This document shows, in pieces, positions 1 through 23,427 of a stretch of 37,609 nt of DNA. The position numbers were made by a program, and so were the translations under genes. Source of the DNA: Gammaproteobacteria bacterium (lineage in GTDB: Bacteria > Pseudomonadota > Gammaproteobacteria > Arenicellales > UBA868); NCBI GenBank assembly GCA_022450155.1, contig JAKUQR010000028.1, positions 1 through 37,609 of the forward strand. Reading direction: 5' to 3'. Under the pieces are notes generated by a model. The model was given only the letters and a program-made list of their open reading frames with translations. It made no database searches and was not told the DNA's origin. The first letter of the stretch is position 1, and each line of letters opens with the position of its first letter.

Positions 1-478
1 CAAGAAAAGTTCCCGCCGTCAGCACCACGGACCGGGCGTCAACAGTCAGTCCACTCTGCGTAACGATACCGGTTACGCAATCGTTCTCGATAACCAGACC
101 GTCCACGGCCTGTTGAAAAAGGCTCAGGTTCGGCTGGTTTTCAACACGCTGACGAATCGCCTGTCTGTACAGCACCCGGTCAGCCTGAGCACGAGTCGCC
201 CGCACCGCCGGACCTTTTCTAGCGTTGAGGATGCGGAACTGTATTCCGGCTCGATCAATTGCCTGTGCCATCGCCCCACCCAAGGCATCGATTTCTTTGA
301 CGATATGGCCCTTGCCAATTCCGCCAATGGCCGGGTTACAGGACATCTGTCCGATGGTCTCTATACTGTGGGTGATCAGCAGCGTTCGGGCGCCCGTCCG
401 CGCGGCGGCGAGCGCCGCTTCGGTACCTGCATGCCCACCGCCGATTACGATGACATCAAACTGGTCTGGGTATTTCAT
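1..478 (-). CDS. mnmG: tRNA uridine-5-carboxymethylaminomethyl modification enzyme MnmG (5' part)
   Basis: MnmG (GidA) is the FAD-binding partner of MnmE. Together they install the cmnm5/nm5 group on U34 of several tRNAs in the cytoplasm. I read the minus strand from the ATG at 478: the protein starts [20 protein letters not shown], which is the family's N-terminal dinucleotide-binding fold with GGGHAG. It continues with the highly conserved [12 protein letters not shown] segment around residues 47-58 and [14 protein letters not shown] near residue 90. The first 159 codons are present; the gene runs off the left edge. Only 16 bases separate its start from the stop of the upstream coiled-coil gene, so the two may be co-transcribed. 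In most Gammaproteobacteria mnmG lies next to mnmE; here about 9 kb of other genes separates them. Identity is secure. Confidence 0.96.
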
Positions 479-494
479 TTGCCAGCATGCCTGC

Positions 495-3400
495 CTAGTT
501 CTTGCTCCAATAATAGTCGTAGCGACTGTGAATCTGACTGGTAAACGATACCGCCTCAGCATGGGATAGGCTGGTATCGTCAGGAAACCAGACGGCGGTA
601 TAGAGTTTTGTGCCGTGCTGTTCTTTCAAGGTTTTCAATTGCACATGCAATTGTGCCCTCGACAGCTCAACGTATCCGTCCCCACCCGGCAACTTGAGAG
701 CATAGTGGTGGCCAGTTTCATCCTTCCAGTACTGTATGCGAACCACATAGCGGCCCACCTTGCTTCGCGCCGGTTTGATCAGCCGATTGTACTCGTACTC
801 AAGTTCCGTATTGCGGGCTTTCAGGATCTCAAGTGCTTCAAGATCTTCTTTTAGCAAATCCCGTTCCTGCTTGAACGCCGCTACCTCGTCCGCATGTTTG
901 GCGCGCAGGGTCTCCAATTCTACTTTGGTCAGCTTGTACTGTTCGCCCACCGCTTCGAGCTGGCCCGTCAACGAGGCTTTTTCTTCGGACAACGATGTGG
1001 CCCGCGCCTCAAGTGACTGCTTGTCCTGTGTCAACCTTTGGTTTGCTGCCTCAAGCTGTTCGCGTGCTTGCGCAACCACAGCCATTTCCTGTTGCAGTGT
1101 CTGCTTCAGGGTGGCCAGTTCCGCCAGCCGACGCGCCAGGGAACGCTTCTCTTCGGAAAGACGGGCAGCATCCTCTTTATACTTTCTCTGGGCCGAAGCC
1201 AGTTGGTCTTTCAGTGTCTCCAGCCGTGCTACCTGCGCGCGCAACACAGAGTTCTTCTCGAACAGCTCGTCACGTTTCTGCGCTAACTCCGCATTCTCAT
1301 CAGTTTCAAGCAATAGCTTGAGCTGTAAATCTCGTCTAAATTGTTCAGCAACGCTCAGCTTGTCAATCAGGGTGAGGGTGTCCTGCTCCGCCTCTTGTCG
1401 ACCTGCCTCGTCCTGTGCTTTTGCCTGCGTTAACTCAGCGTAAGCATCTCGCAGGGACTGGATTTCGTTTCTCAGCTTGACGATCTCACTCCGCTGGTTA
1501 CTGCGCGCATCCTCGAGTGTTGTGATCTTTCCGGTCGCTTCCTGGTGCTCGGTCTGCAGCCGGTCATATTCGTGCTGCAGGGACTGGATTTTGTTGCTCA
1601 GCTTCACGATCTCGATCTGTAAGTCGCTGCGAGCAGACTGAAGCGAAGTGGTCTCGCTTGAGGCCTCCTCGTAGGCTGATCTCAGCTGATCATGCTCGTG
1701 CTGCAGTGCGCGCTTCAGCTCGCCCAATACCGCAAGTTCTGTGCGCAGGGTAGTATTACGCTCAGCAAGTCCCGCTTTGTCTTTCTGCAACGCCGACAGT
1801 GAAGCAGTCAGGCGTTTGATCTGTTCCTTGAGTTGCTCGCGAACCGCTTCAATATCTAGCAGCCGGCGTCCCTGTCCAACAACGGTTTCGGTCAGCACGG
1901 CTTTTTCTTTGTCGATCTCGGCTTTTTCTCCAGCCAGCGCCTCATACTGCGCCTCAAGGGCTTTTTTGAACGTCACCAGCTCGGCCAGCTCACGGGCAAG
2001 GGAGCGTTTTTCCGCTGATAATGCCGTTCGCTGGGTCGTCAGGCCAGCTTTGTCTTGCGCCAGCTGCTGGCCCGTCGATACTGCTCGGTCTCGTTCTCCG
2101 GAGACCTCGGCAAGGTTCTGTTCCAACACCGCCTTCAGCGCCGTGAGTTCTGCTAACTGGCGCACCAACATAAGCTTGTCTTCGGCGAGTTTCGCGCTCC
2201 GTGCTTCGAGTGATTGGCTATTTTGTTGCAGCTTTTGGTTGGCTGACTCGAGCTGTGTGCGCGCTTCGGTCGCTATACCTAAATCCTGTTGTAGCGTTTG
2301 TTTCAGGGCAGCCAGTTCGGCCAGCTTTCGCACCAGTGACAGGTTTTCTTCAGACAACACCGTAGTCTGCGTCTGCAGGGTCTGTTTGCCCTGTTGTAAC
2401 GTGGCCTTTTCGGCCTCAACAAACTTGTATTCACCAAGCAGTTCGGTGATCTGGTTCTCCAGTTTCGCACGCACCGACACCAGTGCTTGGTGTTTTTCCG
2501 TCATGGACAGCAAATCAACCTTCAGGCTGTCCCGTTCCTGACCGATTTGACCCTTGTCTTCAAGCAACGTCAGGCGAACCTGCTCTAGCGCCGCGACATC
2601 CCGCAGCAGCACATCAATCCGCGACTGGCGATCGACTCCAGTCGCCAGTGCTTGCTCGCGTTCGTTTTCAGTCTCGCCCAGCTGCAACTGTAGGGTAGCG
2701 ACTTCACTGCCCAGTGCCGCAATTCTCGATTCAAGCGTTGCTTTTTTCTCCGATAGAACCATCTTGTCCAAGGTTAGCTGATCGCGTGACAATCTGACTG
2801 TATCCAGTTCCTTGGTGAGCCCCTGAACTGTTTCTTTCAGGCCGGTTTTTTCACCCTGCAGGCGCCCGCGGTCGCCGAGCAGTCCCGCGATCTGGCTTTC
2901 AAGCTGAAGACGCAGTTCAATCAAGGCGTTGTGTTTTTCATCCAGAGACATAAGCTCACCGGACAATTGATCTCTTGTTTCAATCAGGTTGCGCTTGTCA
3001 CCTGCCAGGCTGTCGCGGACCTGTTCGAGTGCCGAGACATCTCGTAGTAGCTCGTCTATTCGCGACTGCCGCTCGGCGGAGGTGCCCTGAACCTGATCGC
3101 GCTCTATGCTCGTTGCAGACAGCTGCTGTTCAAGACCTGAGATTTCATTGCCAAGTGCGACTATTCTCGATTCCAGTGTTCCCTGTACGCCCTGCAACGA
3201 AGACTTATCCAAAACCAGTTGATCGCGGGCCGCGGAAACGGTTGTGTTCCGTTCGATTAATTCCGCTTTCTCGTCCGATAGTGCTGTCCGTTCACCGATC
3301 AACGCCGCGACTTCGTTTTCAAGCTCCAGTCGCAGCGCCTCCAGTGACTGATGCTTCTGCGCGAGAGATAGCAGTTCGCCTTCCAGGTTATCCCGTTCAC

Positions 3401-3818
3401 CAGTCAGTTGCCCTCGCTCGTCGGTCAAGTTGTCGCGGACCTGTTCTAGCGCCGCGACATCTCGCAGTAGATCGTCTATTCGCGACTGCCGCTTCTCCGA
3501 CACCGCTTCCGCCCGCTCGTGCCTGGCCTCGGTCTCACCGAGCTTGAGGTGCAACGCGGCGACCTCGTCACCAAGGGAGGATGTCTTGAGCTCGAGTGCC
3601 GTGCGTTCGGTCGTGACCTGCTGCTCGTATGCCATCGTGGCTCTCAACTGTCGAACCAACTCCATGTTTCGGATCAGGATGACCACCAGCGCAAGCAGAA
3701 ATATCATGACGATAACGGTCATGACATCGGTAAACGACGGCCAGACGCTGTCCTCGTTGGTGGCTAGCTGACCTGATGGCGAGACCCTAAGGTCTACAAA
3801 CCCCTCGGTACGAATCAT
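495..3818 (-). CDS. Membrane-anchored giant coiled-coil protein with MotB/ExbD-like N-terminal helix
   Basis: I do not recognise a named family for the full 1107-residue protein. Residues 1-30 are short and acidic. Residues about 28-49 form one transmembrane helix beginning [13 protein letters not shown], whose Asp31 matches the proton-binding aspartate of MotB/ExbD/TolR-type stator subunits. Residues about 52-1015 are almost continuous heptad coiled coil rich in E, Q, L, R and K with no proline or glycine breaks of note. About 87 residues form a compact C-terminal domain (from [16 protein letters not shown] near 1021). No OmpA-like peptidoglycan-binding motif is visible. Three long repeats begin with RQSRID at residues 110, 250 and 397. 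The start overlaps the stop of the MotA-like gene by four bases (ATGA), which implies translational coupling. The likely role is the second subunit of an ion-driven motor or channel; substrate and partner are unknown. Confidence 0.85.
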
Positions 3819-4744
3819 CGCCGCGGGGTTTTGAGCCGGAACCCTTCTCTGAGGAGCTCGATCATCTGCTCCAGTGCGCCACTGTTGCGCTGCATCTCGT
3901 CGCGATAGCTGGAGAGGAGTTCCTTTAGCTCATCAGCCACCTCGGCGTACTGTGCCTGAGAGGCATCGAGCCTTTTTACCAGTGCGGCAGCAGCCCGAAT
4001 AATGTCAGAGAAATCCTCTATGACTGTCTCCGTGGTGACCTGAAATCGAGGCAGCAAGACGGTCGCTGTGGCCTCTTCAACTCGACTGATCACGTGCGTC
4101 TGCACGTCTGTCAGGCGAAGGTAAAAATAACCGAAAAATAAATAAGCCAAAATGGCTGTCATGGTCGTGGATAAGGCAGCCGACATACCGTGGATAACCA
4201 TCCCCAAGCCGCCGATCTCGGTCGCCGTGGCCACCATGTTAGAGGCACCGAAAAGTGCAACGGACAGCGAAACAATGGTGCCAAACACACCGGTCAAAAT
4301 GAGAACGTTCTGAACAAACCTAGGAAAACTGTTACGACTGGATTCATCAGCCACAAGGGTAGCCGCCAAAGCATTATGGTTGACCGACGATCGGCGATCG
4401 TGGAGGTCGCGCAGCGTGCGATAACGCCTCAGAATGATGGTGCCTTCCGCCACACCTCTCTCTGGATCCGTGCCACTGTCCATATTGTCCAGAAACTGTC
4501 CCATCGCCTGTTCTTCAAGGCTGTAGCTGATAAAAAGCCGTACCAGTTGATACATCCCGGACAAAAATAGCAGAACGATACCGCCGTTGATGAACAAGCC
4601 AACCTGGGTCAGTTGATTCCTCAGATAGACCTCCGACAGAAACTCCCGCTGCCACAGGACTACCGACAGACAGATTACAGCAAGCACTGCAAGCTGAATC
4701 AGGATCGGCTTGATATAGCTGGTTTGACGCATGAACACGGGCAT
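3815..4744 (-). CDS. MotA/TolQ/ExbB-type ion-channel protein
   Basis: The 309-residue protein (from the ATG at 4744; an in-frame TTG at 4789 and an ATG at 4732 are alternatives, none with a clear ribosome site) has four predicted membrane helices at about 12-31, 48-73, 145-167 and 178-208. A cytoplasmic loop lies between helices 2 and 3, and a long amphipathic C-terminal helix runs from 217 to 302. Helix 3 carries GVFGTIVSLSVALFG and helix 4 GGLGMVIHGMSAALSTTMTA, matching the GLLGTV...ALxTT pattern of the MotA/TolQ/ExbB channel core. These families use a proton or sodium gradient to drive movement of a partner. The partner here is evidently the downstream coiled-coil protein with its Asp-bearing helix, since the genes overlap by four bases. 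There is no flagellar, TonB or Tol-Pal gene nearby, so it is probably a separate stator type. Family assignment is good; function is inferred. Confidence 0.82.
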   Translation of the reverse strand: MPVFMRQTSYIKPILIQLAVLAVICLSVVLWQREFLSEVYLRNQLTQVGLFINGGIVLLFLSGMYQLVRLFISYSLEEQAMGQFLDNMDSGTDPERGVAEGTIILRRYRTLRDLHDRRSSVNHNALAATLVADESSRNSFPRFVQNVLILTGVFGTIVSLSVALFGASNMVATATEIGGLGMVIHGMSAALSTTMTAILAYLFFGYFYLRLTDVQTHVISRVEEATATVLLPRFQVTTETVIEDFSDIIRAAAALVKRLDASQAQYAEVADELKELLSSYRDEMQRNSGALEQMIELLREGFRLKTPRR

Positions 4745-5269: not shown

Positions 5270-6271
5270 TCAACCCGATCTGCTTTCTGAGACCCGGATT
5301 GCCAGAATACACAGCATTTCGAATAAGATGGTGGCGGCGTGCAAGGCAGTGTTGCCTGATGGGTCGAGGGGGGGAGAGACTTCGACGACATCGCCACCGA
5401 TAAAATCCAGTCCTGTGAGTTCGCGAATCAGACGTTGTGCTTCGCGCATGGTGATGCCGCCGGCCTCGGGTGTGCCGGTGCCGGGCGCATAGACCGGATC
5501 CAAACCGTCGACGTCGAAGGTCAGATACGCCGGCCCGTTACCCACCACGCGTTTGGCTTCCCGGGCTACCGCCTGCCAGCCCAGATCTTCGAATTCTTCG
5601 ATGGTAATCACCCGCATCCCGCTGTCCCGCGAGTAGTCGAGGCCATCGGCGAAGTTCTGGCCACCGCGAATCCCGATCTGTACGGTTCTCCGGGGATCGA
5701 TCAACCCCTCTTCTGTCGCCAGACGAAACGGTGCGCCATGATGAAATTTTGACCCGGAAATCGCCGGCCAGGTATCAGTGTGGGCATCAATATGGACCAG
5801 CCCCAGCGGTTGATCGTAGCCGGGCGCCAGTGCTTTTAGAATCGGGTAGGTGACTGAATGATCGCCCCCAACGGCCAGAGGGCGGACCCCCGTTTTAGCA
5901 ATGGCCAGAAAATACCGTTCGATATCGTTGATGGCCTGGTCCAGGTTGAATAAGTCATTAAAGCGGACGTCACCCAGGTCTGCTACGCGGGCCCGGTCAT
6001 ACGGCCGCTCCCCCGTTGCGACATTGATCGCGCGCATCAGGGTTGACTCATTTCGCACTTCCCGGGGGCCATAACGCGCCCCGGTTCGGCAGGTCAAGCC
6101 ACCGTCGTAGGGTATTCCGATGATCCCGATATCCACCCCATCGAGCGATTCGACGAGCGGCGTACGCATAAAGGTCGCCACTTCAGTAAAGCGAGGCGCC
6201 TGCATGGGCTCATAGGGCTCGCCGGTAATATCGGTTCGCTGGTAAAAATCTTTTTGCTCTGTGTTTGACAT
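5270..6271 (-). CDS. speB: Agmatinase-family ureohydrolase
   Basis: Ureohydrolases of this family use a binuclear manganese centre to release urea from a guanidino compound: agmatine, guanidinobutyrate, guanidinopropionate or similar. The metal-binding motifs are all present in the 333-residue protein: GGDHS at 135-139, DAHTD at 162-166 and TFDVDGLDP at 251-259, giving ligands His138, Asp162, His164, Asp166, Asp253 and Asp255. I chose the ATG at 6271 because a CAGGAG ribosome site sits about seven bases upstream; an in-frame TTG at 6277 is less likely. No arginine decarboxylase, transporter or polyamine gene is adjacent, so the substrate cannot be fixed; agmatinase is the usual name, and a guanidinobutyrase or another guanidino hydrolase is equally possible. 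It is transcribed toward the MotA-like operon. Confidence 0.88.
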   Translation of the reverse strand: MSNTEQKDFYQRTDITGEPYEPMQAPRFTEVATFMRTPLVESLDGVDIGIIGIPYDGGLTCRTGARYGPREVRNESTLMRAINVATGERPYDRARVADLGDVRFNDLFNLDQAINDIERYFLAIAKTGVRPLAVGGDHSVTYPILKALAPGYDQPLGLVHIDAHTDTWPAISGSKFHHGAPFRLATEEGLIDPRRTVQIGIRGGQNFADGLDYSRDSGMRVITIEEFEDLGWQAVAREAKRVVGNGPAYLTFDVDGLDPVYAPGTGTPEAGGITMREAQRLIRELTGLDFIGGDVVEVSPPLDPSGNTALHAATILFEMLCILAIRVSESRSG

Positions 6272-6310
6272 CCTCAATCTCCTGGTCGCTGTCCCGTTAT
6301 GCGGGCTTAG

Positions 6311-6507
6311 TCACCGCACGTCCTTGAATTGTGCGCTGTTTCGACCCTTTGTGACACCATCAAGTTCTTCGGCTATCAGGACGGTGTTCTAGCCAATGCC
6401 GGTGGTCACTACGGCGATTGTGCGCAGACCCAGGCTTTAGTCGATAGACTCACCTCAAACAACCTGTGCGCCAGATGGTTTTTCCGCTGAGCACTGACGG
6501 CCCATAA
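6311..6507 (+). pseudogene. Possible frameshifted gene remnant upstream of the crotonase gene
   Basis: From the stop at 6308 an open frame runs to a TGA at 6488 and reads like genuine protein (DTIKFFGYQDGVLANAGGHY, then GDCAQTQALVDRLTSNNLCA). Near 6472 the sense appears to continue in another frame as [11 protein letters not shown], ending at TAA 6505-6507, as though one base had been lost. There is no convincing start codon or ribosome site. I do not recognise the parent gene. Together with the RidA-like fragment on the other side of the crotonase gene it suggests that this neighbourhood has been eroded. Confidence 0.3.
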
Positions 6508-6527
6508 GACAAACTCGGAGTAACCCC

Positions 6528-7337
6528 ATGTCTGACCGTTACATTGACTACGACAAACTACTGATCGAACGCCCGGCCGACGGTATCCTGAAGATCACAT
6601 TCAATAAGCCTGAGAGTTTTAACTCGGTGGATTCTCAAACACACTCTCAGCTGACCGAAATATGGCGCGACATCGATGCGGATTCGACCGTGCGCGCGGT
6701 TCTCGTAACCGGGGCAGGAAAGGCGTTCTCTGCGGGCGGTGATTTTGACCTGATCGAGGAAATCATGGACGACCCGCAAACGAGGATGCGAGTCTGGAAG
6801 GAAGCGCGTGACCTGGTTTACAACATTATCAATTGCAACAAAGTCATCGTTTCAGCGATTAACGGCCCGGCGGTTGGCGCGGGTCTGGTGGTGGGCCTGT
6901 TGGCTGACGTATCTATTGCAGGTAAAGCGGCTCGCATTGTGGATGGTCACACGCGTCTAGGGGTGGCCGCCGGAGACGTTGCCTGCATCATTTGGCCCCT
7001 GCTGTGCGGCATGGCCAAATCCAAATACTACCTGCTAACCTGCAGGCCACTGAAAGGCGAGGAGGCTGAACGCATCGGTCTGGTGTCCTTGTGCGTAGAC
7101 GACGACCAGCTACAAGAGACAGCACTGGAGATAGCGACCGAACTGGCGAATGGGGCACAGAGTGCGATCCGCTGGACCAAGTACGCCTTAAACAACTGGC
7201 TTCGGATGGCCGGGCCCACGTTTGATACGTCGACTGCGCTCGAAATGCTTGGCTTCACGGGCACCGAAGTGAAAGAGGGTCTGGCTTCTCTCAAAGAAAA
7301 ACGATCGCCTCAGTTTGCTAAAGATTGTCCGCTGTAA
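6528..7337 (+). CDS. Enoyl-CoA hydratase/isomerase (crotonase) family protein
   Basis: This 269-residue crotonase-fold protein is expected to bind an acyl-CoA thioester in the cytoplasm. The oxyanion-hole segments are visible: [11 protein letters not shown] around residue 65-75 and [20 protein letters not shown] around 109-128. The two glutamates that act in classical enoyl-CoA hydratase are not there. The position equal to rat Glu144 (GGGCELA) reads GAGLVVG, and the PE of the Glu164 region reads HT in [12 protein letters not shown]. The reaction is therefore probably not simple hydration; isomerisation, decarboxylation or C-C bond cleavage are possible. A GGAG ribosome site lies about seven bases before the ATG. 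It is flanked by two gene remnants and has no fatty-acid oxidation partner here. Confidence 0.85.
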
Positions 7338-7365
7338 CTGCGCTGTACAACCAGTCGAACCCCTG

Positions 7366-7563
7366 GTGTTACCCCGCACGCACATCAATCCTCCAGGTCA
7401 CTGGGTAACCGAACCAAAGCTGCCTTACAGCCAGGCAGTGCGTTGTGGTGAACTGATCTTCACAACCGGGCAGGTTGCATTGGATACAGATCTTACTGTC
7501 ATCGCCGCGACTGATTCACGTGGCCAGATCCGCGCGGCGGTTGATGATCGTTTTAGGGATTAG
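7366..7563 (+). pseudogene. Truncated RidA/YjgF-family gene fragment
   Basis: From a possible GTG at 7366 the frame reads THINPPGHWVTEPKLPYSQA then VRCGELIFTTGQVALDTDL. This resembles the N-terminal part of RidA (YjgF/YER057c) enamine/imine deaminases, whose YSQAV-G--IFTTGQ pattern is distinctive. RidA proteins are about 130 residues; this frame stops after about 65, at TAG 7561, and the sequence then turns AT-rich without any trace of the C-terminal half or its catalytic arginine. It starts shortly after the crotonase stop and has no clear ribosome site. I read it as a 3'-truncated remnant rather than a working gene. Confidence 0.6.
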
Positions 7564-7637
7564 ATATCTACTGGCTTTTTATAGACTATTTGCCGATACA
7601 GAACTTACATTATTTTTATTAAGGCTTTTTTGTATTT

Positions 7638-7669
7638 TTTGTTCCCAAAGCATCTAAGTGGGGAACAAA
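7638..7669. repeat. Inverted repeat in AT-rich intergenic stretch
   Basis: A perfect 9-bp inverted repeat, TTTGTTCCC at 7638-7646 and GGGAACAAA at 7661-7669, is separated by 14 bases. It sits in an AT-rich stretch (about 7565-7680) that begins where the RidA-like fragment breaks off. It could be a terminator-like hairpin for the crotonase transcript, a regulator site, or the edge of a vanished element. Apart from this and the operator candidate at 7801-7830, I see nothing in 7564-7864. Confidence 0.5.
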
Positions 7670-7800
7670 TTTATTGCGAACCTGACGATATATCCCCCGT
7701 CCGTCACGCGATGGCCAAGACAACAACCGTTGCCGTCATTGATCAGCACAAGCTAGTTTGCGACCGGTAGAAGCGGTTGGTGCTATGGCACCTTTGGAAC

Positions 7801-7830
7801 TGGGCAAACTATGTAGAATCAGTTTACCCA
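7801..7830. promoter_or_regulatory. Palindromic candidate operator upstream of hutU
   Basis: TGGGCAAACT at 7801-7810 and AGTTTACCCA at 7821-7830 form a near-perfect inverted repeat (9 of 10 pairs) with a 10-base spacer, ending 34 bases before the hutU start. The position and dyad symmetry fit a dimeric repressor or activator site. The sequence is not one I can assign to HutC or another named regulator, and no regulator gene lies nearby. Confidence 0.45.
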
Positions 7831-7864
7831 ACGAAAATTTTTGGATAAGTCAGGACATAGGACT

Positions 7865-9562
7865 ATGCCAGCCACGACACTCAACCGATACGCACCAGAA
7901 CGACACATCAAAGCGCCAACCGGGAATGAACTTCAGTGCAAGCACTGGGGGGCCGAGGCCCCGATGCGAATGCTGATGAACAACCTGGATCCTGAGGTTG
8001 CGGAAAACCCGGCCGAACTGATCGTCTACGGTGGGGTCGGTCGGGCTGCCCGCGACTGGGACAGTTTCGATCAAATTATAAGTTCGCTCAAGAACCTCGA
8101 GGAGAACGAAACACTGCTCGTCCAATCGGGTAAGCCCGTCGGTGTGTTCCAGACCCATGAAGAAGCTCCCCGGGTGCTGATTGCCAACTCGAACCTGGTT
8201 CCTCACTGGGCAACACTGGAACACTTCTCAGAACTGGATCAACAGGGCCTGATGATGTACGGACAGATGACGGCTGGATCCTGGATCTATATCGGCTCCC
8301 AGGGCATCGTCCAGGGGACCTATGAAACGTTTGCGGAACTGGCCCGACAGCACTTTAACGGTTCGTTCGAGGGCCGGTGGATACTGACAGCGGGGCTCGG
8401 CGGTATGGGCGGCGCCCAGCCGCTGGCAGCGACCATGAACGGCGCCTCGATGATCGCCGTGGAATGCAACATGCAGTCGATTGAGTCGCGCCTGCGGACA
8501 CGCTACCTGGATGCGTGGGCCGACAATCTGGACGACGCCCTCAAGCTGGTCGAGGATGCCCACAACAATGTCCGACCTATCTCGGTGGGTTTGCTGGGTA
8601 ACGCCGCCGACGTGTTTCCGGATATCGCAGCGCGTTCCCGGCAGGATCCCAGATACCTGCCCGATGTGGTGACCGATCAGACCTCCGCCCATGATCCCCA
8701 GGCCGGCTATCTGCCCCAGGGCTGGTCAGTTGACGATTGGATCGAGCGCCGGCGAACTGACCCGGCCGGTGTTGCTGACGCAGCCAAAGCATCCATGGCG
8801 GTTCAGGTGCGGGCGATGCTGGATTTCTGGGAGCGGGGAATTCCGGTGGTGGACTACGGCAACAATATCCGCCAGATGGCTCAGGAAGTCGGGGTCAAGA
8901 ACGCTTTCGACTATCCTGGATTTGTGCCCGCTTACGTCAGGCCCCTGTTCTGCACTGGTACAGGGCCTTTCAGGTGGGCGGCGCTGTCGGGGGACCCCGA
9001 AGACATCTACAAAACCGACGTAAAGGTCAAGGAACTCATCCCGGATAACCCGCACCTGCACCGGTGGCTGAACATGGCCCGAAAGCGAATCGCCTTCCAG
9101 GGCATGCCGAGCCGTATCTGCTGGGTGGGACTGGGCGATCGCGATAGGATTGGGCGGGCCTTTAATCAGATGGTGGCAAATGGCGAGCTGAGTGGACCGA
9201 TCGTGATCGGCCGCGATCATCTCGACAGCGGATCGGTTGCAAGCCCAAACCGCGAGACCGAAAACATGAAAGACGGGTCAGATGCTGTTTCCGACTGGCC
9301 GATACTCAACGCGCTTCTGAACACGGCATCAGGTGCGACATGGGTGTCTTTTCATCATGGCGGTGGTGTGGGTATCGGTTTCTCCCAACATGCCGGTTTG
9401 GTCATAATGGCTGATGGTTCAGCCTCGGCGGATCGAAAACTGGCCCGCGTGTTGTGGAACGATCCTGCCACCGGTGTAATGCGTCACGCCGACGCGGGTT
9501 ACGAGGAGGCGATAGCATGCGCCCGGGACAAAGGTCTAAACTTGCCGGGAATTTTGGTTTAA
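7865..9562 (+). CDS. hutU: Urocanate hydratase
   Basis: Urocanase hydrates urocanate to imidazolone propionate, the second step of histidine breakdown, using tightly bound NAD+ as an electrophile. The 565-residue length matches the family (about 555-565). Visible landmarks are the glycine-rich NAD-binding stretch [13 protein letters not shown] from residue 177, the active-site segment [13 protein letters not shown] with Cys419, and the conserved C-terminal [17 protein letters not shown] chose the ATG at 7865, preceded by AGGA, over the in-frame TTG at 7841, because the family starts near this point. None of hutH, hutI, hutG or hutC is in the window, so the gene stands alone here. A palindromic site just upstream may control it. 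Confidence 0.95.
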
Positions 9563-13790: not shown

Positions 13791-15128
13791 GTGTCCACCG
13801 CCCTTTGGAAACTTTGCTTAAGTCGTCTCGAAGACGACCTCTCCGCCCAGCAGTTCAATACCTGGATCCGGCCACTGCACGCCGTCGAAAACGCTGACGG
13901 TCTGACGCTGCTAGCGCCCAACCGATTTGTGCGCGACTTCGTACACAGAGAATACCTGGGGCTGATCTCTAGCCTAGCGAAAAACTTCAGCCCCAAACCC
14001 GCAGCAATCAGACTGGATATCGGCAGTGAGCAGGCAGGCAGCACTGTTACCGCTACAGCCGATCAGTCACCGGTAGCCCACAACAAAGGCTCGACTGCTC
14101 TGGGTTTTGAAGGCCGTCTCAACCCAGCTTTTACCTTTGAGACCCACGTTGAGGGTAAATCCAACCAACTGGCCCGGGCCGCTGCCAGCCAAGTCGGGGA
14201 AAACCCGGGGCAAGCCTATAACCCGTTGTTTCTTTACGGGGGTGTCGGTTTAGGTAAAACACACCTGATGCAAGCTGCCGGTAATCTGACCCGGCAACTT
14301 AGGCCGGAAGCCAAAGTCGTGTACGTACACTCCGAACGGTTTGTGGCCGATATGGTCAAAGCCCTGCAGCATAACAAAATCAATGATTTCAAGCGTTATT
14401 ATCGATCTCTGGATGCCCTGCTGATTGACGACATTCAGTTCTTTTCAGGAAAAGAGCACTCACAGGAAGAATTTTTCCATACTTTCAATACGTTACTAGA
14501 AGGCCAGCGACAAATCGTGATTACCAGTGACCGCTTTCCGCGTGAGATTTCCGGCGTCCAGGAGCGCCTGATTTCCCGTTTCGGTAGCGGCCTGACCGTC
14601 CCGATCGACCCGCCCGAACTCGAGACTCGAATGGCCATCTTAAAAATCAAAGCCCAGCAGAAAGGCGTCGACCTGCCCGAAGACGTGTGTTTTTTTGTAG
14701 CCAAACAGATTCGGTCCAATGTGCGGGAACTCGAGGGCGCGCTCCACCGGATAATCGCCAGTGCTAACTTTACCGGACGCAAGATCAATATCGACCTTGC
14801 TCGGGAAGCACTGCGCGACCTGTTGGTTTTTCAGGAACGCCAAATCACCATACAGAATATCCAGAAAGTCGTCGCGGAATATTTCAAGATGCGCATCTCG
14901 GACCTGCATTCCAAGCGGCGTAACCGTCAGATTACCCGACCTCGCCAGATCGCAATGGCGCTGGCCAAAGAACTCACCACTATGAGTTTGCCAGAAATTG
15001 GCGACGCTTTCGGGGGTAGAGACCACACAACCGTATTGCACGCTCAACGCAAGGTCAGCGAGTTAATCAAGACGGACCCTAAGATCAGCGAAGACTACCA
15101 GAACCTACAGCGCCTTCTGAGTGGATAA
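13791..15128 (+). CDS. dnaA: Chromosomal replication initiator DnaA
   Basis: DnaA binds DnaA boxes, opens the origin and loads the DnaB helicase. The GTG start at 13791 gives 445 residues. Domain I begins [20 protein letters not shown]. The AAA+ domain opens with [20 protein letters not shown], then Walker [10 protein letters not shown] and Walker [10 protein letters not shown]. The C-terminal DNA-binding domain ends with the signature [15 protein letters not shown]. Domain II is short, explaining the slightly reduced length compared with E. coli. Perfect DnaA boxes upstream suggest self-repression. Confidence 0.97.
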
Positions 15129-21155: not shown

Positions 21156-22742
21156 TCAGCCAAGCCATCGATTAACCCGTGAAACATCCTCTTCGTTAAG
21201 CTGGCCTGCCAGCTGTTCCAGCACCAGGACCTGCAGGACATAATCATAACGCGCTTTGAGGTAGTCTCGTTCGGCCCGGAACAGGTCTCGTTGTGCGTTG
21301 AGCACCTCAATGTTGGTGGTTAAGCCTGCGGCAAAGCCTTCTTCTTTGGCCTGAAGCGCGCTTTCTCCGGCGGTAACAGCTTGTGCCAGCGCGGTGATTC
21401 GACGCAGCTGACTATTGATACTGAGAAATGCTTGGCGTGTCTTGCGCTGAATTTCTCGGCGAGCCGATTCGTAGCGGGCGCGGGCAGCATTGTGATTCGA
21501 AGTCGCTTCTCTGATCTGGGCGTTGATGAGGCCGCCTTGATAGAACGGCAACTTGAACAACAGGGTCAAGCTGGCGTCGGTGCCGTCGGCCGATGCACGG
21601 TCAGAGTATTCGGCAGATAGATTCAGCCCCACCGTGAGTCGCCGTAATGCTTGTTGCCGGTCGATCTCTGTTTCAGCCGCCGACGTGTCCAGTGACAGTG
21701 CTTTGAGTGACCGATTGTCCAATAGGGCCCGGCCGATCCACAGCCCAGCATCATCAGGCTGTGGCTTCGATAATGCCGCAGCGGGAGACAGTGACAGCAG
21801 CGTACCGGGGTCCCTGCCCACCAGGGCGACCAGCACCTGCCGCATGTCGACCAGCACCCGTTGGGCTTCGATACCTTCAGCTACAGAGTATTCGTAGCGG
21901 GCCCGGGCGTCGTAAAGATCGGTCCGGGTGCCCAGGCCAACATCGAGCCGCTCTTCGGCGAGTTCCAGCTGTCTACGAATAGCCCGCTGGTTACGCTCTG
22001 ACAGCTCTAGGTTATCCTGGGCTGAGAGTACCGCAAAATAACTGTTGGCCACGCGTTGAATCAGTGATTCAGCGGCGATCTGGTAGTTAACATCCGCCGC
22101 ATCAGTCTGCAGGCGTGCTTGCTTGATCAGAAGACGGCTTGAACGGTCGTATATCGATTGCTTGAGTGACACTGTGGCTGATGCGGCCTGATTGGTCAGA
22201 TCCCTGGAGACGAGTGTGTAGCTGCTCGACGCAGATAAATGTGGCCGGAATGCGGCTAGGGCCTGAGGAATAGCTTCTTGCCCAGCTTCACGCCGGTGGA
22301 CTTGTGTTGCGAACTCAGGATCGCTGGACCACGCCAGACGATATATGGCCAGCAGGTCGATACCGCTGGTCGTCGACTCTGAAGAAGAGACAATGACCGT
22401 TGTCGCTGAATCACGGGCCGTGTCAGTGTCGGTTTGCGCTGGGTTTTCGTTGTCAGTGGTAGCGGAGACGCCTGTAGTGACGGTGGCCGCCTGGGTCTGA
22501 CTTTCTTCCTCGTCGGATTCGACCGCCGGCGCGCTGGTAATCTTAAGGGACTGGCCGGGGTAGATTACGCCGCTCTCGTCCAGACCGTTCCACGCCATTA
22601 GGTCCGCGCAGCGCACCCCGAACAGTTCTGCGATTTCGCACGGCGTGTCCCCAGGTTGCACGGTGTACTGATTCTGGGCTGAAACCCAAGTGCTGCCCGA
22701 CGCCATCAGAATAACTACGGTGTAAAGGAACGCTTTAATCAT
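21156..22742 (-). CDS. TolC-family outer-membrane efflux protein with N-terminal LysM domain
   Basis: TolC-type trimers form the outer-membrane channel of type I secretion and multidrug efflux. From the ATG at 22742 the 528-residue protein has a signal peptide (MIKAFLYTVVILMASGSTWV, cut after SAQ). A LysM module of about 45 residues follows (QYTVQPGDTPCEIAELFGVR to YPGQSLKI). A Ser/Thr/Glu-rich linker comes next, then two outer-membrane efflux repeats (LLAIYRLAWSSDPEF, LTNIEVLNAQRDLFRAERDY). LysM binds peptidoglycan, so the fusion would anchor the channel to the wall or guide its assembly. The frame extends to TTG-type starts near 22805, but that would precede the signal peptide. The isoaspartate methyltransferase gene upstream is a frequent neighbour of tolC homologues. 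Confidence 0.88.
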   Translation of the reverse strand: MIKAFLYTVVILMASGSTWVSAQNQYTVQPGDTPCEIAELFGVRCADLMAWNGLDESGVIYPGQSLKITSAPAVESDEEESQTQAATVTTGVSATTDNENPAQTDTDTARDSATTVIVSSSESTTSGIDLLAIYRLAWSSDPEFATQVHRREAGQEAIPQALAAFRPHLSASSSYTLVSRDLTNQAASATVSLKQSIYDRSSRLLIKQARLQTDAADVNYQIAAESLIQRVANSYFAVLSAQDNLELSERNQRAIRRQLELAEERLDVGLGTRTDLYDARARYEYSVAEGIEAQRVLVDMRQVLVALVGRDPGTLLSLSPAAALSKPQPDDAGLWIGRALLDNRSLKALSLDTSAAETEIDRQQALRRLTVGLNLSAEYSDRASADGTDASLTLLFKLPFYQGGLINAQIREATSNHNAARARYESARREIQRKTRQAFLSINSQLRRITALAQAVTAGESALQAKEEGFAAGLTTNIEVLNAQRDLFRAERDYLKARYDYVLQVLVLEQLAGQLNEEDVSRVNRWLG

Positions 22743-22773
22743 GTTGGTTTTGAATCCGCCGTAAATCTTGAGG

Positions 22774-23427
22774 TTAGAAGGTAAATGCTGAGGGGGTCCG
22801 GACATTAATCAGGGGCGGCAAACTGGTGTCAAAAATAGAGTGTTCAGTCGATTCTTCATTATCGCCGCGGCTATAGAGCATAGCCTCCATGACGGGTGAC
22901 TGGCCAACAATCGCGACCAGCCGACCACCCGGTGCCAGCCGATTGCGGTGGGCACGAGGTGGAACGGGCACCGAGCCGGTGAGAATAATTGCGTCCCAAG
23001 CGTCGTCTTCGGTCCAGTCTTCAGCAGCGTCTCCTTCTTCGAACGTGGCGTTGACAATGCCCAGGTTTTCGAGCCGGGTCGCAGCAGGCCTCAGAAAGTC
23101 ACCATAGATGTCGACGCTTGTAACATGGGCGCAACAACTGGCCAAAAGAGCAGTCAGGTAGCCAGTGCCGGTACCGACCTCGAGGACCCGATCAGTGGAC
23201 GTTAATGCCAGGGCCTGGGTCAAACGGGCTTCAACCTTGGGCTGCATCATGCACTCACCGTGGCCGATCGGCAGGTTTAAGTCAGCAAACGCCAAATCCC
23301 GATCTTTTGGGGGCACAAACAGTTCGCGGGGCAGTTTCTTCAGCAACGCTAATAACGCTGGATCCAGCACCTCCCACGGGCGAATCTGCTGTTCAATCAT
23401 GTTAAACCGGGCGAGCTCGATATCCAT
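22774..23427 (-). CDS. pcm: Protein-L-isoaspartate O-methyltransferase family protein
   Basis: Members methylate isoaspartyl residues in damaged proteins, using S-adenosylmethionine. The 217-residue protein starts MDIELARFNMIEQQIRPWEV at the ATG 23427. It has ELFVPP, the substrate-loop equivalent ECMMQPKVEARLTQAL, SAM-binding motif I VLEVGTGTGYL at 81-91, and the acidic motif SVDIYG. The loop lacks the TISQP sequence of canonical PCMT, as in the divergent subgroup often found beside tolC, so true repair activity is not certain. It lies 31 bases upstream of the LysM-TolC gene. Confidence 0.85.
   Translation of the reverse strand: MDIELARFNMIEQQIRPWEVLDPALLALLKKLPRELFVPPKDRDLAFADLNLPIGHGECMMQPKVEARLTQALALTSTDRVLEVGTGTGYLTALLASCCAHVTSVDIYGDFLRPAATRLENLGIVNATFEEGDAAEDWTEDDAWDAIILTGSVPVPPRAHRNRLAPGGRLVAIVGQSPVMEAMLYSRGDNEESTEHSIFDTSLPPLINVRTPSAFTF

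Follow-up and report, generated by a model that had tools for sequence, protein, structure and literature searches.

Gram-negative bacteria must bring inner-membrane energy to the outer membrane, which itself has no energy source, and the Tol and Ton systems are thought to use separate transducers attached beside the motor. Several ion-driven motors have been described with which the gene pair analyzed here can be compared. In TolQR, the linker of TolR is disordered and spans over 25 residues, as given in the accessible parts of two accounts (PMC4646322, PMC8928145). The rod of Zorya is made up of the C-termini of ZorA, bundled in the cytoplasm, and ZorB terminates in a Pal-like domain that binds the wall (available portion of PMC11890865); flagellar MotB consists of a plug, a linker and an OmpA-like domain (available portion of PMC12505986). 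For TolQ-like motors with pore-helix vWA proteins, which have a periplasmic vWA fold and come mostly as heterologous pairs, the axle subunit itself was proposed as the force transducer (available portion of PMC12204202). How force is transferred across the periplasm is not settled, both from general knowledge and from the accessible part of PMC8928145. Here we describe a two-gene family, denoted A/B, that is probably an additional 5:2 ion-driven motor of the Tol/Ton/Mot class in which the axle bears its own trans-envelope shaft.

Domain anatomy of the A/B pair

In the window, that is, the whole analyzed stretch of 37,609 nucleotides, genes A (3815..4744; coding 3818-4744, stop codon 3815-3817) and B (495..3818; coding 498-3818, stop codon 495-497) are both located on the minus strand, and an ATGA overlap joins the two reading frames. 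They encode, respectively, a 309-aa channel subunit predicted to have the ExbB/TolQ fold and a 1107-aa axle subunit with a coiled coil. The 5' part of mnmG (2..478, minus strand) starts 16 bp downstream of gene B and runs off the contig, and dnaA is encoded at 13791-15128. The preliminary description of this locus had reported the same overlap and 16-bp gap, both of which are seen here, and had placed the pair beside the origin, which is true for this window. The domain anatomy of the pair, given below, is well supported.

Protein A is an ExbB/TolQ-type subunit according to its modeled fold (pLDDT 78.9), with four membrane helices predicted from the model. In a Foldseek search against PDB, the best rows were ExbB and TolQ (best E 2.8e-3, probability 1.00; neither the A model nor the model of the end domain of B, discussed below, yielded rows at E 0.001 or less), and the VIA Z scores were 12.8 for ExbB, 12.5 for TolQ, 10.4 for ZorA and 8.7 for MotA, with the caution that, for helical bundles, Z under about 13 can arise by chance. 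The MotA/TolQ/ExbB superfamily fills the first 40 Foldseek rows and the first 23 VIA rows. At the sequence level, the Pfam family MotA_ExbB matches protein A below the cut-off (E 4e-4; 20.5 bits, cut-off 22.9) and 32 of the 33 A family members at E up to 0.1 (best 1.4e-5). PDB sequence searches with A alone or with the 33-row profile of A did not find motor proteins, and comparison with NCBIfam yielded scattered weak similarities that included ZorA for 2/33. Thr156, Thr193 and Thr194 are invariant in both the 16-row and the 33-row alignments, which fits what a Thr ring requires. Past the last membrane helix, the protein continues for about 95-100 residues (as estimated from the modeled helix boundary), comprising a conserved, presumably cytosolic helix (about residues 205-301, with an estimated start; 3833..4132, minus strand) that ends in a conserved GFRL peptide (residues 301-304).

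Protein B starts with a presumed cytosolic tail (residues 1-25; 3744..3818, minus strand) that carries a conserved GFxDLR motif and is followed by a ZorB/MotB-like transmembrane helix (residues 26-49; 3672..3743, minus strand). Residues 21-76 match ZorB (PADLOC model ZorB3, E 6.7e-7), and the first 67 residues match the ZorB structure 8vvn in PDB at E 0.0056; with a 17-row family profile of the helix, the hits include 8vvn at E 1.8e-5 and, in addition, a designed membrane protein (E 0.0012). No Pfam family clearly claims the helix (ExbD in 3/17 rows, best E 0.025, beside unrelated matches). Asp31 (codon 3726..3728, minus strand), the predicted ion-binding residue, aligns with the Asp of ZorB and is kept in all 189 B rows, which come from overlapping sets. 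Thus, B possesses one helix and a conserved Asp, as the axles of 5:2 ion-driven motors require. The preliminary description had read this segment as a MotB-type helix with a functional aspartate; the similarity to ZorB and MotB is indeed present, and loss of Asp31 in homologs was not seen.

The C-terminal domain of B (residues 1014-1107; 498..779, minus strand), which the preliminary description left unassigned, appears to adopt the TolR/ExbD periplasmic fold, an assignment based on the modeled fold and on a shuffled profile control. The core of the model is confident and forms a small TolR-like fold. The first Foldseek row is TolR 5by4 (probability 0.99, E 0.062), with an unrelated ribosomal chain close behind by E value (0.081) but not by probability (0.66). 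The best VIA matches are TolR 2jwk (Z 8.3, 73 residues, 2.3 A), TolR 5by4 (Z 8.0) and ExbD (Z 6.4), compared to 5.6 for the next, unrelated structure. The profile of the domain aligned with the profile of 29 TolR/ExbD periplasmic domains with a score of 21.0, which was not reached in any of 300 column shuffles (maximum 18.8). In direct searches, Pfam detected ExbD in 2 of the 45 end domains (with E 0.066 at best and in the company of other chance-like matches), a PDB sequence search with the profile returned nothing useful, and the Pfam scans of B and of the 45 end domains gave no OmpA or vWA matches. A fold of the TolR/ExbD type points to the envelope as the probable site of function rather than to DNA, which the preliminary description had also considered.

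Length, continuity and sidedness of the rod

Between the membrane helix and the end domain, B forms a continuous heptad coiled coil (residues 53-1013; 780..3662, minus strand) whose 961 residues include neither Pro nor Cys. The hydrophobic period is 3.5, with a power of 86.4, whereas 500 shuffles did not exceed 12.3, and the phase is nearly constant. At 0.15 nm per residue, the rod in the window would be about 143 nm long if straight. The rod of about 140 nm in the preliminary description thus holds for the window but represents the extreme of the family: complete B proteins range from 292 to 1107 aa, with a median of 360 aa and the B of the window being the longest, the coil spans about 150-960 residues, and the shaft measures about 25-29 nm in the common short forms. 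One of the short homologs, from Sedimenticola selenatireducens DSM 17993, has a B of 357 aa.

The rod length varies in whole heptads. The 45 distinct rod lengths fall, modulo 7, on remainders 0 (19 lengths), 4 (19), 1 (5), 2 (1) and 5 (1), with p 2e-13, whereas the control moduli 5, 6 and 8-12 gave p 0.38-0.94. When all 90 representatives, rather than distinct lengths, were counted, modulus 7 gave p 8.5e-49, and moduli 8-12 deviated weakly (p 0.0006-0.017), which we put down to related rows having equal lengths. Among the non-zero length differences between sister pairs, 16 of 20 are multiples of 7 (p 8e-11); the underlying tree comes from a quick search with 38 of the 87 inner branches open, so that several pairs are poorly supported and the pairs are only roughly independent. 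On the tree, the transition between long and short B occurs 7 times, with at least 4 changes forced by starred branches. By comparison, the C-terminal helix of A, in 16 distinct lengths, shows no preference for multiples of 7. All length statistics leave out 24 of the 189 B rows (19 that run off a contig and 5 with N-runs). These shifts indicate that the rod is one continuous coil; whole-heptad changes are expected in any unbroken coiled coil and so are evidence of continuity, not of torque.

The genome is assembled in 77 contigs and N-runs occur in five B rows of relatives, so that the long coil could be considered an artefact of assembly or gene calling. We find this barely credible because no direct DNA repeats of at least 40 bp were found within B (12-base seeds), the heptad register is unbroken, congeners encode a homologous B of 806 aa, and in f11, another family of the order, B forms of 754-966 aa are present; thus, the length of B is not an obvious assembly artefact. 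In the congeners, the rod is under purifying selection, with dN/dS of about 0.12 (coil, 0.115-0.118; A, 0.11; end domain, 0.04-0.06).

The charge distribution around the B helix goes against the positive-inside rule (net -2.2 on the N side, -0.2 on the C side) and does not favor the usual orientation. B could accordingly be inserted in reverse, with the coil and the end domain in the cytoplasm, acting on DNA or another internal target in the manner of the ZorA tail; the cytoplasm is also roomier for a 143-nm rod, and the best NCBIfam matches of B are SMC-type coils. The latter matches are probably compositional: the similarity to SMC and Rad50 is nearly confined to the coil and scores far below the cut-offs, and we rejected the possibility that B is an SMC-like DNA-acting protein. 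Reverse insertion appears very unlikely given that the helix runs in the same sense as the aligned helix of ZorB, a protein with a periplasmic C-terminal domain, and that the end domain has the predicted fold of two periplasmic domains. Moreover, B almost entirely lacks Cys, as expected of an exported chain: across the 90 representatives, there is 1 Cys in 36,893 residues of B, compared to 84 in 28,603 residues of A and 49 in 6,454 residues of 13 other proteins of the window.

Distribution and genomic neighborhood

Gene A was detected in 55 of the 369 sampled genomes of the class, and the pair is carried by many little-studied marine and sulfur bacteria as well as by Sedimenticola strains kept in culture. 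The A/B pair is therefore a widespread family without a name: among the literature matches listed, as far as their accessible parts go, none describes it, including PMC12505986 (the figures of which may include members), PMC12204202, PMC11890865, PMC4646322, PMC10771500, PMC8928145 and PMC7156740. As relatives of the window, we took, besides the window itself, all 57 matches with E below 1e-60, leaving out two fragments of one genome and the weaker matches; loci lacking a readable B amounted to 1 of 80 in one set and 2 of 54 in another.

The adjacency to mnmG, from which a shared operon had been surmised, recurs in the order of the window, where 39 of 58 loci have B and mnmG no more than 100 bp apart, but not class-wide (0 of 52); a second set gave 22 of 79 and shares genomes with the 58 loci, so that the counts of 39 and 22 overlap. 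The adjacency thus belongs to the order of the window and says little about function, and we rejected the mnmG operon as a functional clue. Gene families next to the pair each recur in at most 13 of the 79 loci.

Ten genes of the window and 10 neighbors elsewhere were assigned by Pfam to housekeeping, metabolic, transport or signaling families, with one left without a match. The latter 10 were scanned out of 18 neighbors located at nine loci; nine belong to metabolic, transport, signaling, peptidase or repeat families, and nothing was found for one. A tenth locus, L235, yielded no neighbors. PADLOC applied to these 10 proteins gave one weak match (4.3e-6), a Sel1-repeat protein. No ZorC/D or ZorE effectors were detected among the 10 window genes (Pfam) and the 10 neighbors elsewhere (Pfam and PADLOC), and searches of phage and plasmid collections with gene A gave no match at E 1e-5, lending no support to an association with mobile elements. 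The link to defense genes, which the preliminary description suggested looking for, thus did not emerge in these neighbors or collections. These findings bear on the reading of A/B as a divergent Zorya-type phage defense system, suggested by the B helix, which is nearest to ZorB among both solved structures and PADLOC models. With neighbors of this kind, no plasmid or phage match, a short C-terminal helix in A and, at the tip of B, a TolR-like domain where ZorB has a Pal-like one (accessible part of PMC11890865), we consider this reading highly improbable.

A tol cluster and an ExbBD-type pair are encoded in the same genome as well, which would make A/B an additional motor. An ExbD/TolR match was obtained in 25 of the 26 genomes searched, and we rejected the possibility that A/B stands in for a missing Tol or Ton motor.

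Proposed machine and comparison with known motors

Profile, fold and conservation support the stator-like motor of the preliminary description, in which B carries the rod and supplies the axle with its Asp. We infer the stoichiometry, the rotation, the parallel dimer, the periplasmic side and the target as follows. Five A subunits would form a ring around an axle of two Asp31-bearing B helices, and ions passing Asp31 would turn the ring and the axle against each other. In the periplasm, the two B chains would continue as a stiff shaft, a two-stranded coiled coil with parallel strands, capped by a TolR/ExbD-like dimer. B would thereby unite in one chain the role of TolR (pore helix and wall-binding domain) and that of TolA (trans-periplasm rod), and the machine would maintain the envelope by exerting torque or a pulling force on the outer membrane or the outer face of the wall. 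We think that these are the sites of work because the 25-29 nm shaft of the common short forms is long enough to span the wall as far as the outer membrane. In contrast, the rod of the window is several times longer than a normal periplasm, so that a straight radial shaft is impossible for the long forms.

Beyond this reading, two others concern how force would pass through B. Possibly, although we consider it the minority case, B is a passive anchor: its TolR-like tip would hold on to the outer membrane or the wall, with the coil as no more than a long tether, and the ring of A would turn, its C-terminal helices with the GFRL peptide driving or recruiting a cytosolic partner, comparable to the rotor contact of the flagellum or the tail of ZorA. 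Published models, in the parts accessible, hold TolR or ZorB at the wall while TolQ or ZorA turns (PMC8928145, PMC11890865); the A C-terminus and the GFxDLR motif of B are conserved, and the poor length conservation of B is tolerable for a tether. A freely hinged tether, however, should take any length change, whereas the rod lengths shift by heptads, and the limited recurrence of neighboring families leaves no partner gene visible. More speculatively, and rather doubtfully, B may be a true drive shaft, in which a stiff coil on the rotating axle carries torque to the TolR-like head, the heptad rule fixes the register of the head to Asp31, and long rods run along the periplasm rather than across it, acting as flexible cables that bring torque to points as far as about 140 nm away from the motor.

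Under the favored reading of A/B as a motor with its own shaft, the pair may be a new machine carrying membrane energy across the cell envelope and adds a family without a name to the envelope machines. A two-gene motor with the axle drawn out as a rod would be a simpler system, whose length, stiffness and register could be altered heptad by heptad, as evolution has already done.

Compared to the known systems, A/B combines features in a distinct manner. With TolQR(A), it shares the ExbB/TolQ-like channel fold of A, the predicted TolR periplasmic fold of the B tip and the axle Asp, but the short disordered linker of TolR is replaced by about 150-960 coiled-coil residues, and tolA, tolB and pal are not beside the pair in the window, the tol cluster of the genome being separate. 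ExbBD(TonB) provides the best fold match of A, and the tip also matches ExbD; however, ExbD is short and TonB is a separate transducer, and no TonB-type gene is found among the 20 genes scanned around A/B. The B membrane helix is closest to ZorB, and the A fold also matches ZorA, whereas the rod is on B instead of ZorA, the end is TolR-like, and A lacks a long cytoplasmic tail. The single Asp-bearing helix on B and the two-gene A-B order resemble flagellar MotAB, but the tip is TolR/ExbD-like rather than OmpA-like and A matches MotA less well. Finally, the vWA-containing TolQ-like motors share with A/B the proposed use of the axle subunit as the force transducer, but, in place of the vWA fold and heterologous pairing, the single B gene of A/B provides both a coiled coil and a TolR-like domain.

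Genomic context and distribution of the gene pair

In the window, both genes are encoded on the minus strand, where gene A (3818-4744), for a predicted channel subunit of 309 aa, is followed downstream by gene B (498-3818), for a predicted axle subunit of 1107 aa; the two share the four bases ATGA at the junction. The mnmG gene, interrupted by the contig edge, starts 16 bp past the end of B. The window is the complete contig C28 of a 3.2 Mb genome assembled in 77 contigs; dnaA, gyrB, yidC and mnmE on the same contig place the pair near the origin. B is located just ahead of mnmG in 39 of the 58 loci from the order of the window. In the window, A is separated from mnmE by a partly opposite-strand block (5270-9562) of an arginase-family gene, enoyl-CoA hydratase and urocanase; relative L090 carries a similar block, and at loci L111 and L114, A immediately follows mnmE. 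Outside this order the neighbours differ, a glycerate-kinase-like gene appearing in 7 of the 79 loci of the genome_contigs set. The same genome encodes a separate tol cluster adjoining ruv genes and an ExbBD-type pair adjoining msbA-like and lpxK-like genes (neighbours named by eye from the sequence). Elsewhere in the window, an outer-membrane efflux protein of 549 aa (21156-22805) contains an OEP domain and, near the N-terminus, a LysM domain, a seemingly unusual pairing.

A was found in 61 of the 100 related genomes, that of the window included (E 0.001); four of these yielded weak matches only, which are probably other MotA-like proteins. At E 1e-20, 55 of the 369 genomes sampled from the class carry A, as do 28 of the 398 in the phylum sample; apart from that of the window, the other 27 are labelled as outside the class, and B with its motif was readable in all nine loci of the phylum sample looked at. 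A relative is encoded by 316 stretches of genome_contigs, of which 80 loci were kept, including Sedimenticola, Candidatus Thiodiazotropha and a large number of marine assemblies. Within the order of the window, A is absent from all 18 sampled genomes of family f10 (for example, G041, G049 and G054), 12 of the 18 being more than 90% complete; these genomes offer a natural comparison for working out what need the pair serves. Two genomes carry A twice, as similar copies in G007 (loci L034 and L035, 78% and 77% identical to A of the window) and as a close and a distant copy in G014 (contigs C114 and C86, 88% and 57%); these are either paralogues or products of mixed assemblies.

Predicted ring subunit, axle helix and tip domain

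A alone matches Pfam MotA_ExbB weakly (20.5 bits, cut-off 22.9), and 32 of the 33 aligned family members reach E 0.1 or better. No NCBIfam family names A clearly, and PDB sequence searches with A or its profile returned no motor protein. With a model of A built from 33 sequences (pLDDT 78.9), Foldseek placed ExbB and TolQ chains on top (best E 2.8e-3), and rows 1-40 were all ExbB, TolQ or MotA. Structural comparison gave Z scores of 12.8 for ExbB, 12.5 for TolQ, 10.4 for ZorA and 8.7 for MotA, values that, as the comparison tool warns, helical bundles can reach by chance; despite this warning, the top 23 rows all belong to the MotA/TolQ/ExbB superfamily, to which the modelled fold thus appears to belong. 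Thr156, Thr193 and Thr194 are invariant in the 16-row and 33-row alignments and, by analogy, might correspond to the threonine ring that TolQ forms with T145 and T178 (PMC8928145). A long C-terminal helix and the conserved peptide GFRL close the A chain. Judging by the alignments, two short conserved peptides, LLxxGFRL (A residues 298-304) and GFxDLR (within B residues 1-25), both presumably cytosolic, look like docking or contact motifs.

Residues 21-76 of B match ZorB models, and a 17-row profile of the helix (residues 26-49) retrieved solved ZorB chains from the PDB (1.8e-5 and 2.2e-4) and, next in rank, a designed membrane protein (E 0.0012); in a Pfam scan, no family clearly claims the helix. 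The aspartate of the motif WP[SAT][FL][TAS]D is retained in all 189 B rows: the order set supplied 58 (the window and 57 others), genome_contigs 79 and the class set 52. Some genomes occur in more than one set; the 165 complete rows were reduced to 90 representatives by removal of near-copies. The corresponding aspartate of ZorB is crucial for defence (PMC11890865).

The last 94 residues of B (1014-1107) form a tip domain conserved in a 45-row alignment and modelled with core pLDDT above 90. The first Foldseek row against the PDB was TolR 5by4 (E 0.062, probability 0.99) and the second a ribosomal chain (E 0.081, probability 0.66). Structural comparison ranked TolR 2jwk (Z 8.3, 73 of 74 residues, 2.3 A), TolR 5by4 (Z 8.0) and ExbD 8vgc (Z 6.4) ahead of unrelated chains (5.6 or less); given the tool's note that unmatched models can reach Z near 8, a profile comparison was added. 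The tip profile scored 21.0 against 29 TolR/ExbD periplasmic domains from the genome of the window and its relatives, compared with 13.2 for the reversed control and a maximum of 18.8 for 300 column-shuffled templates. Because the three best structural rows represent one axle-subunit fold, on a protein already possessing an axle helix, the modelled tip likely adopts the TolR/ExbD fold. TolR binds peptidoglycan after removal of its swapped strands (PMC4646322), and ExbD binds it transiently (PMC10771500).

Three features, the alignment to ZorB, the periplasmic tip fold and the scarcity of cysteine in B (1 in 36,893 residues among the 90 representatives; 84 in 28,603 for A), make it highly probable that the rod and tip are periplasmic; the charge around the helix (net -2.2 on the N side, -0.2 on the C side) does not point to the periplasm.

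The rod and its length in heptad steps

The rod (residues 53-1013) contains neither proline nor cysteine, and its hydrophobicity has a period of 3.5 residues (power 86.4 vs a maximum of 12.3 in 500 shuffles), with a nearly constant heptad phase along the chain. One core position is 74% Leu; at the other, hydrophobic residues make up 40% and Lys/Arg 38%, compared with 12% Lys/Arg in 46 short relatives, whose core occupies the identical two positions counted from the aspartate. Given this Lys/Arg-rich position, the long rod of the window may be softer. If straight and two-stranded, with the rise of 0.1485 nm per residue of such coiled coils, its 961 residues would span about 143 nm. The 165 complete B proteins have a median length of 360 aa, with extremes of 292 and 1107 aa, that of the window being the longest seen, and proline occurs in five of the 165 coils. 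Among three congeners with an 806-aa B, dN/dS of the rods is 0.115-0.118, similar to that of A (0.11, one pair), and the tip is constrained more strictly (0.04-0.06).

Rod length was measured from the aspartate to a conserved arginine where the tip domain begins. Modulo 7, this distance leaves a remainder of 0 in 61 of the 90 representatives, 4 in 22, 1 in five, and 2 and 5 in one each; for the 45 distinct distances, the counts are 19, 19, 5, 1 and 1 (remainders 0, 4, 1, 2 and 5; p 2e-13). In coiled coils, a remainder of 4 marks the classic stutter. Moduli 5, 6 and 8-12 had no effect on the distinct distances (p 0.38-0.94); the weak deviation for moduli 8-12 among the representatives (p 0.0006-0.017) is probably due to shared ancestry. 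Of 28 sister pairs in the A tree, 20 differ in length, 16 of these by multiples of 7 (p 8e-11), including 266 and 301, and the C-terminal helix of A (16 distinct lengths) follows no such rule. Lengths shifting by heptads or by the stutter remainder argue that, throughout the family, the rod acts as a single uninterrupted coil. The long/short label changes seven times on the A tree, at least four changes being forced by starred branches, so that a repeated origin of the long forms is probable.

Proposed mechanism and comparison with known motors

The A-B pair is real, conserved and structurally unusual, and has no name in the libraries searched; as a variant of the ion-driven 5:2 motors, it has strong support with respect to anatomy and moderate support for the mechanism proposed here. 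B would combine TolR and TolA in one chain, as an axle carrying its own shaft. For a different family, with vWA domains, PMC12204202 proposes the same principle, in which the axle subunit turns within the ring and transmits the force; this precedent lowers the novelty of the principle and raises the plausibility of the idea. The shaft itself may turn, or it may be stationary, with B a passive anchor and the ring of A turning around it. No rod of 100 nm or more could stand upright in a periplasm of normal width; the long rod may lie lengthwise against the wall, curve or double back, hinges being disfavoured by the unbroken register.

The shortest rod, of about 150 residues, would span 22 nm, and the commonest (aspartate-arginine distance 196-224, 41 of the 90 representatives) about 25-29 nm, so that a straight rod would bring the tip beyond the wall towards the outer membrane with no unfolding. 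TolR is proposed to rearrange and extend a linker to reach the wall some 9 nm away (PMC4646322).
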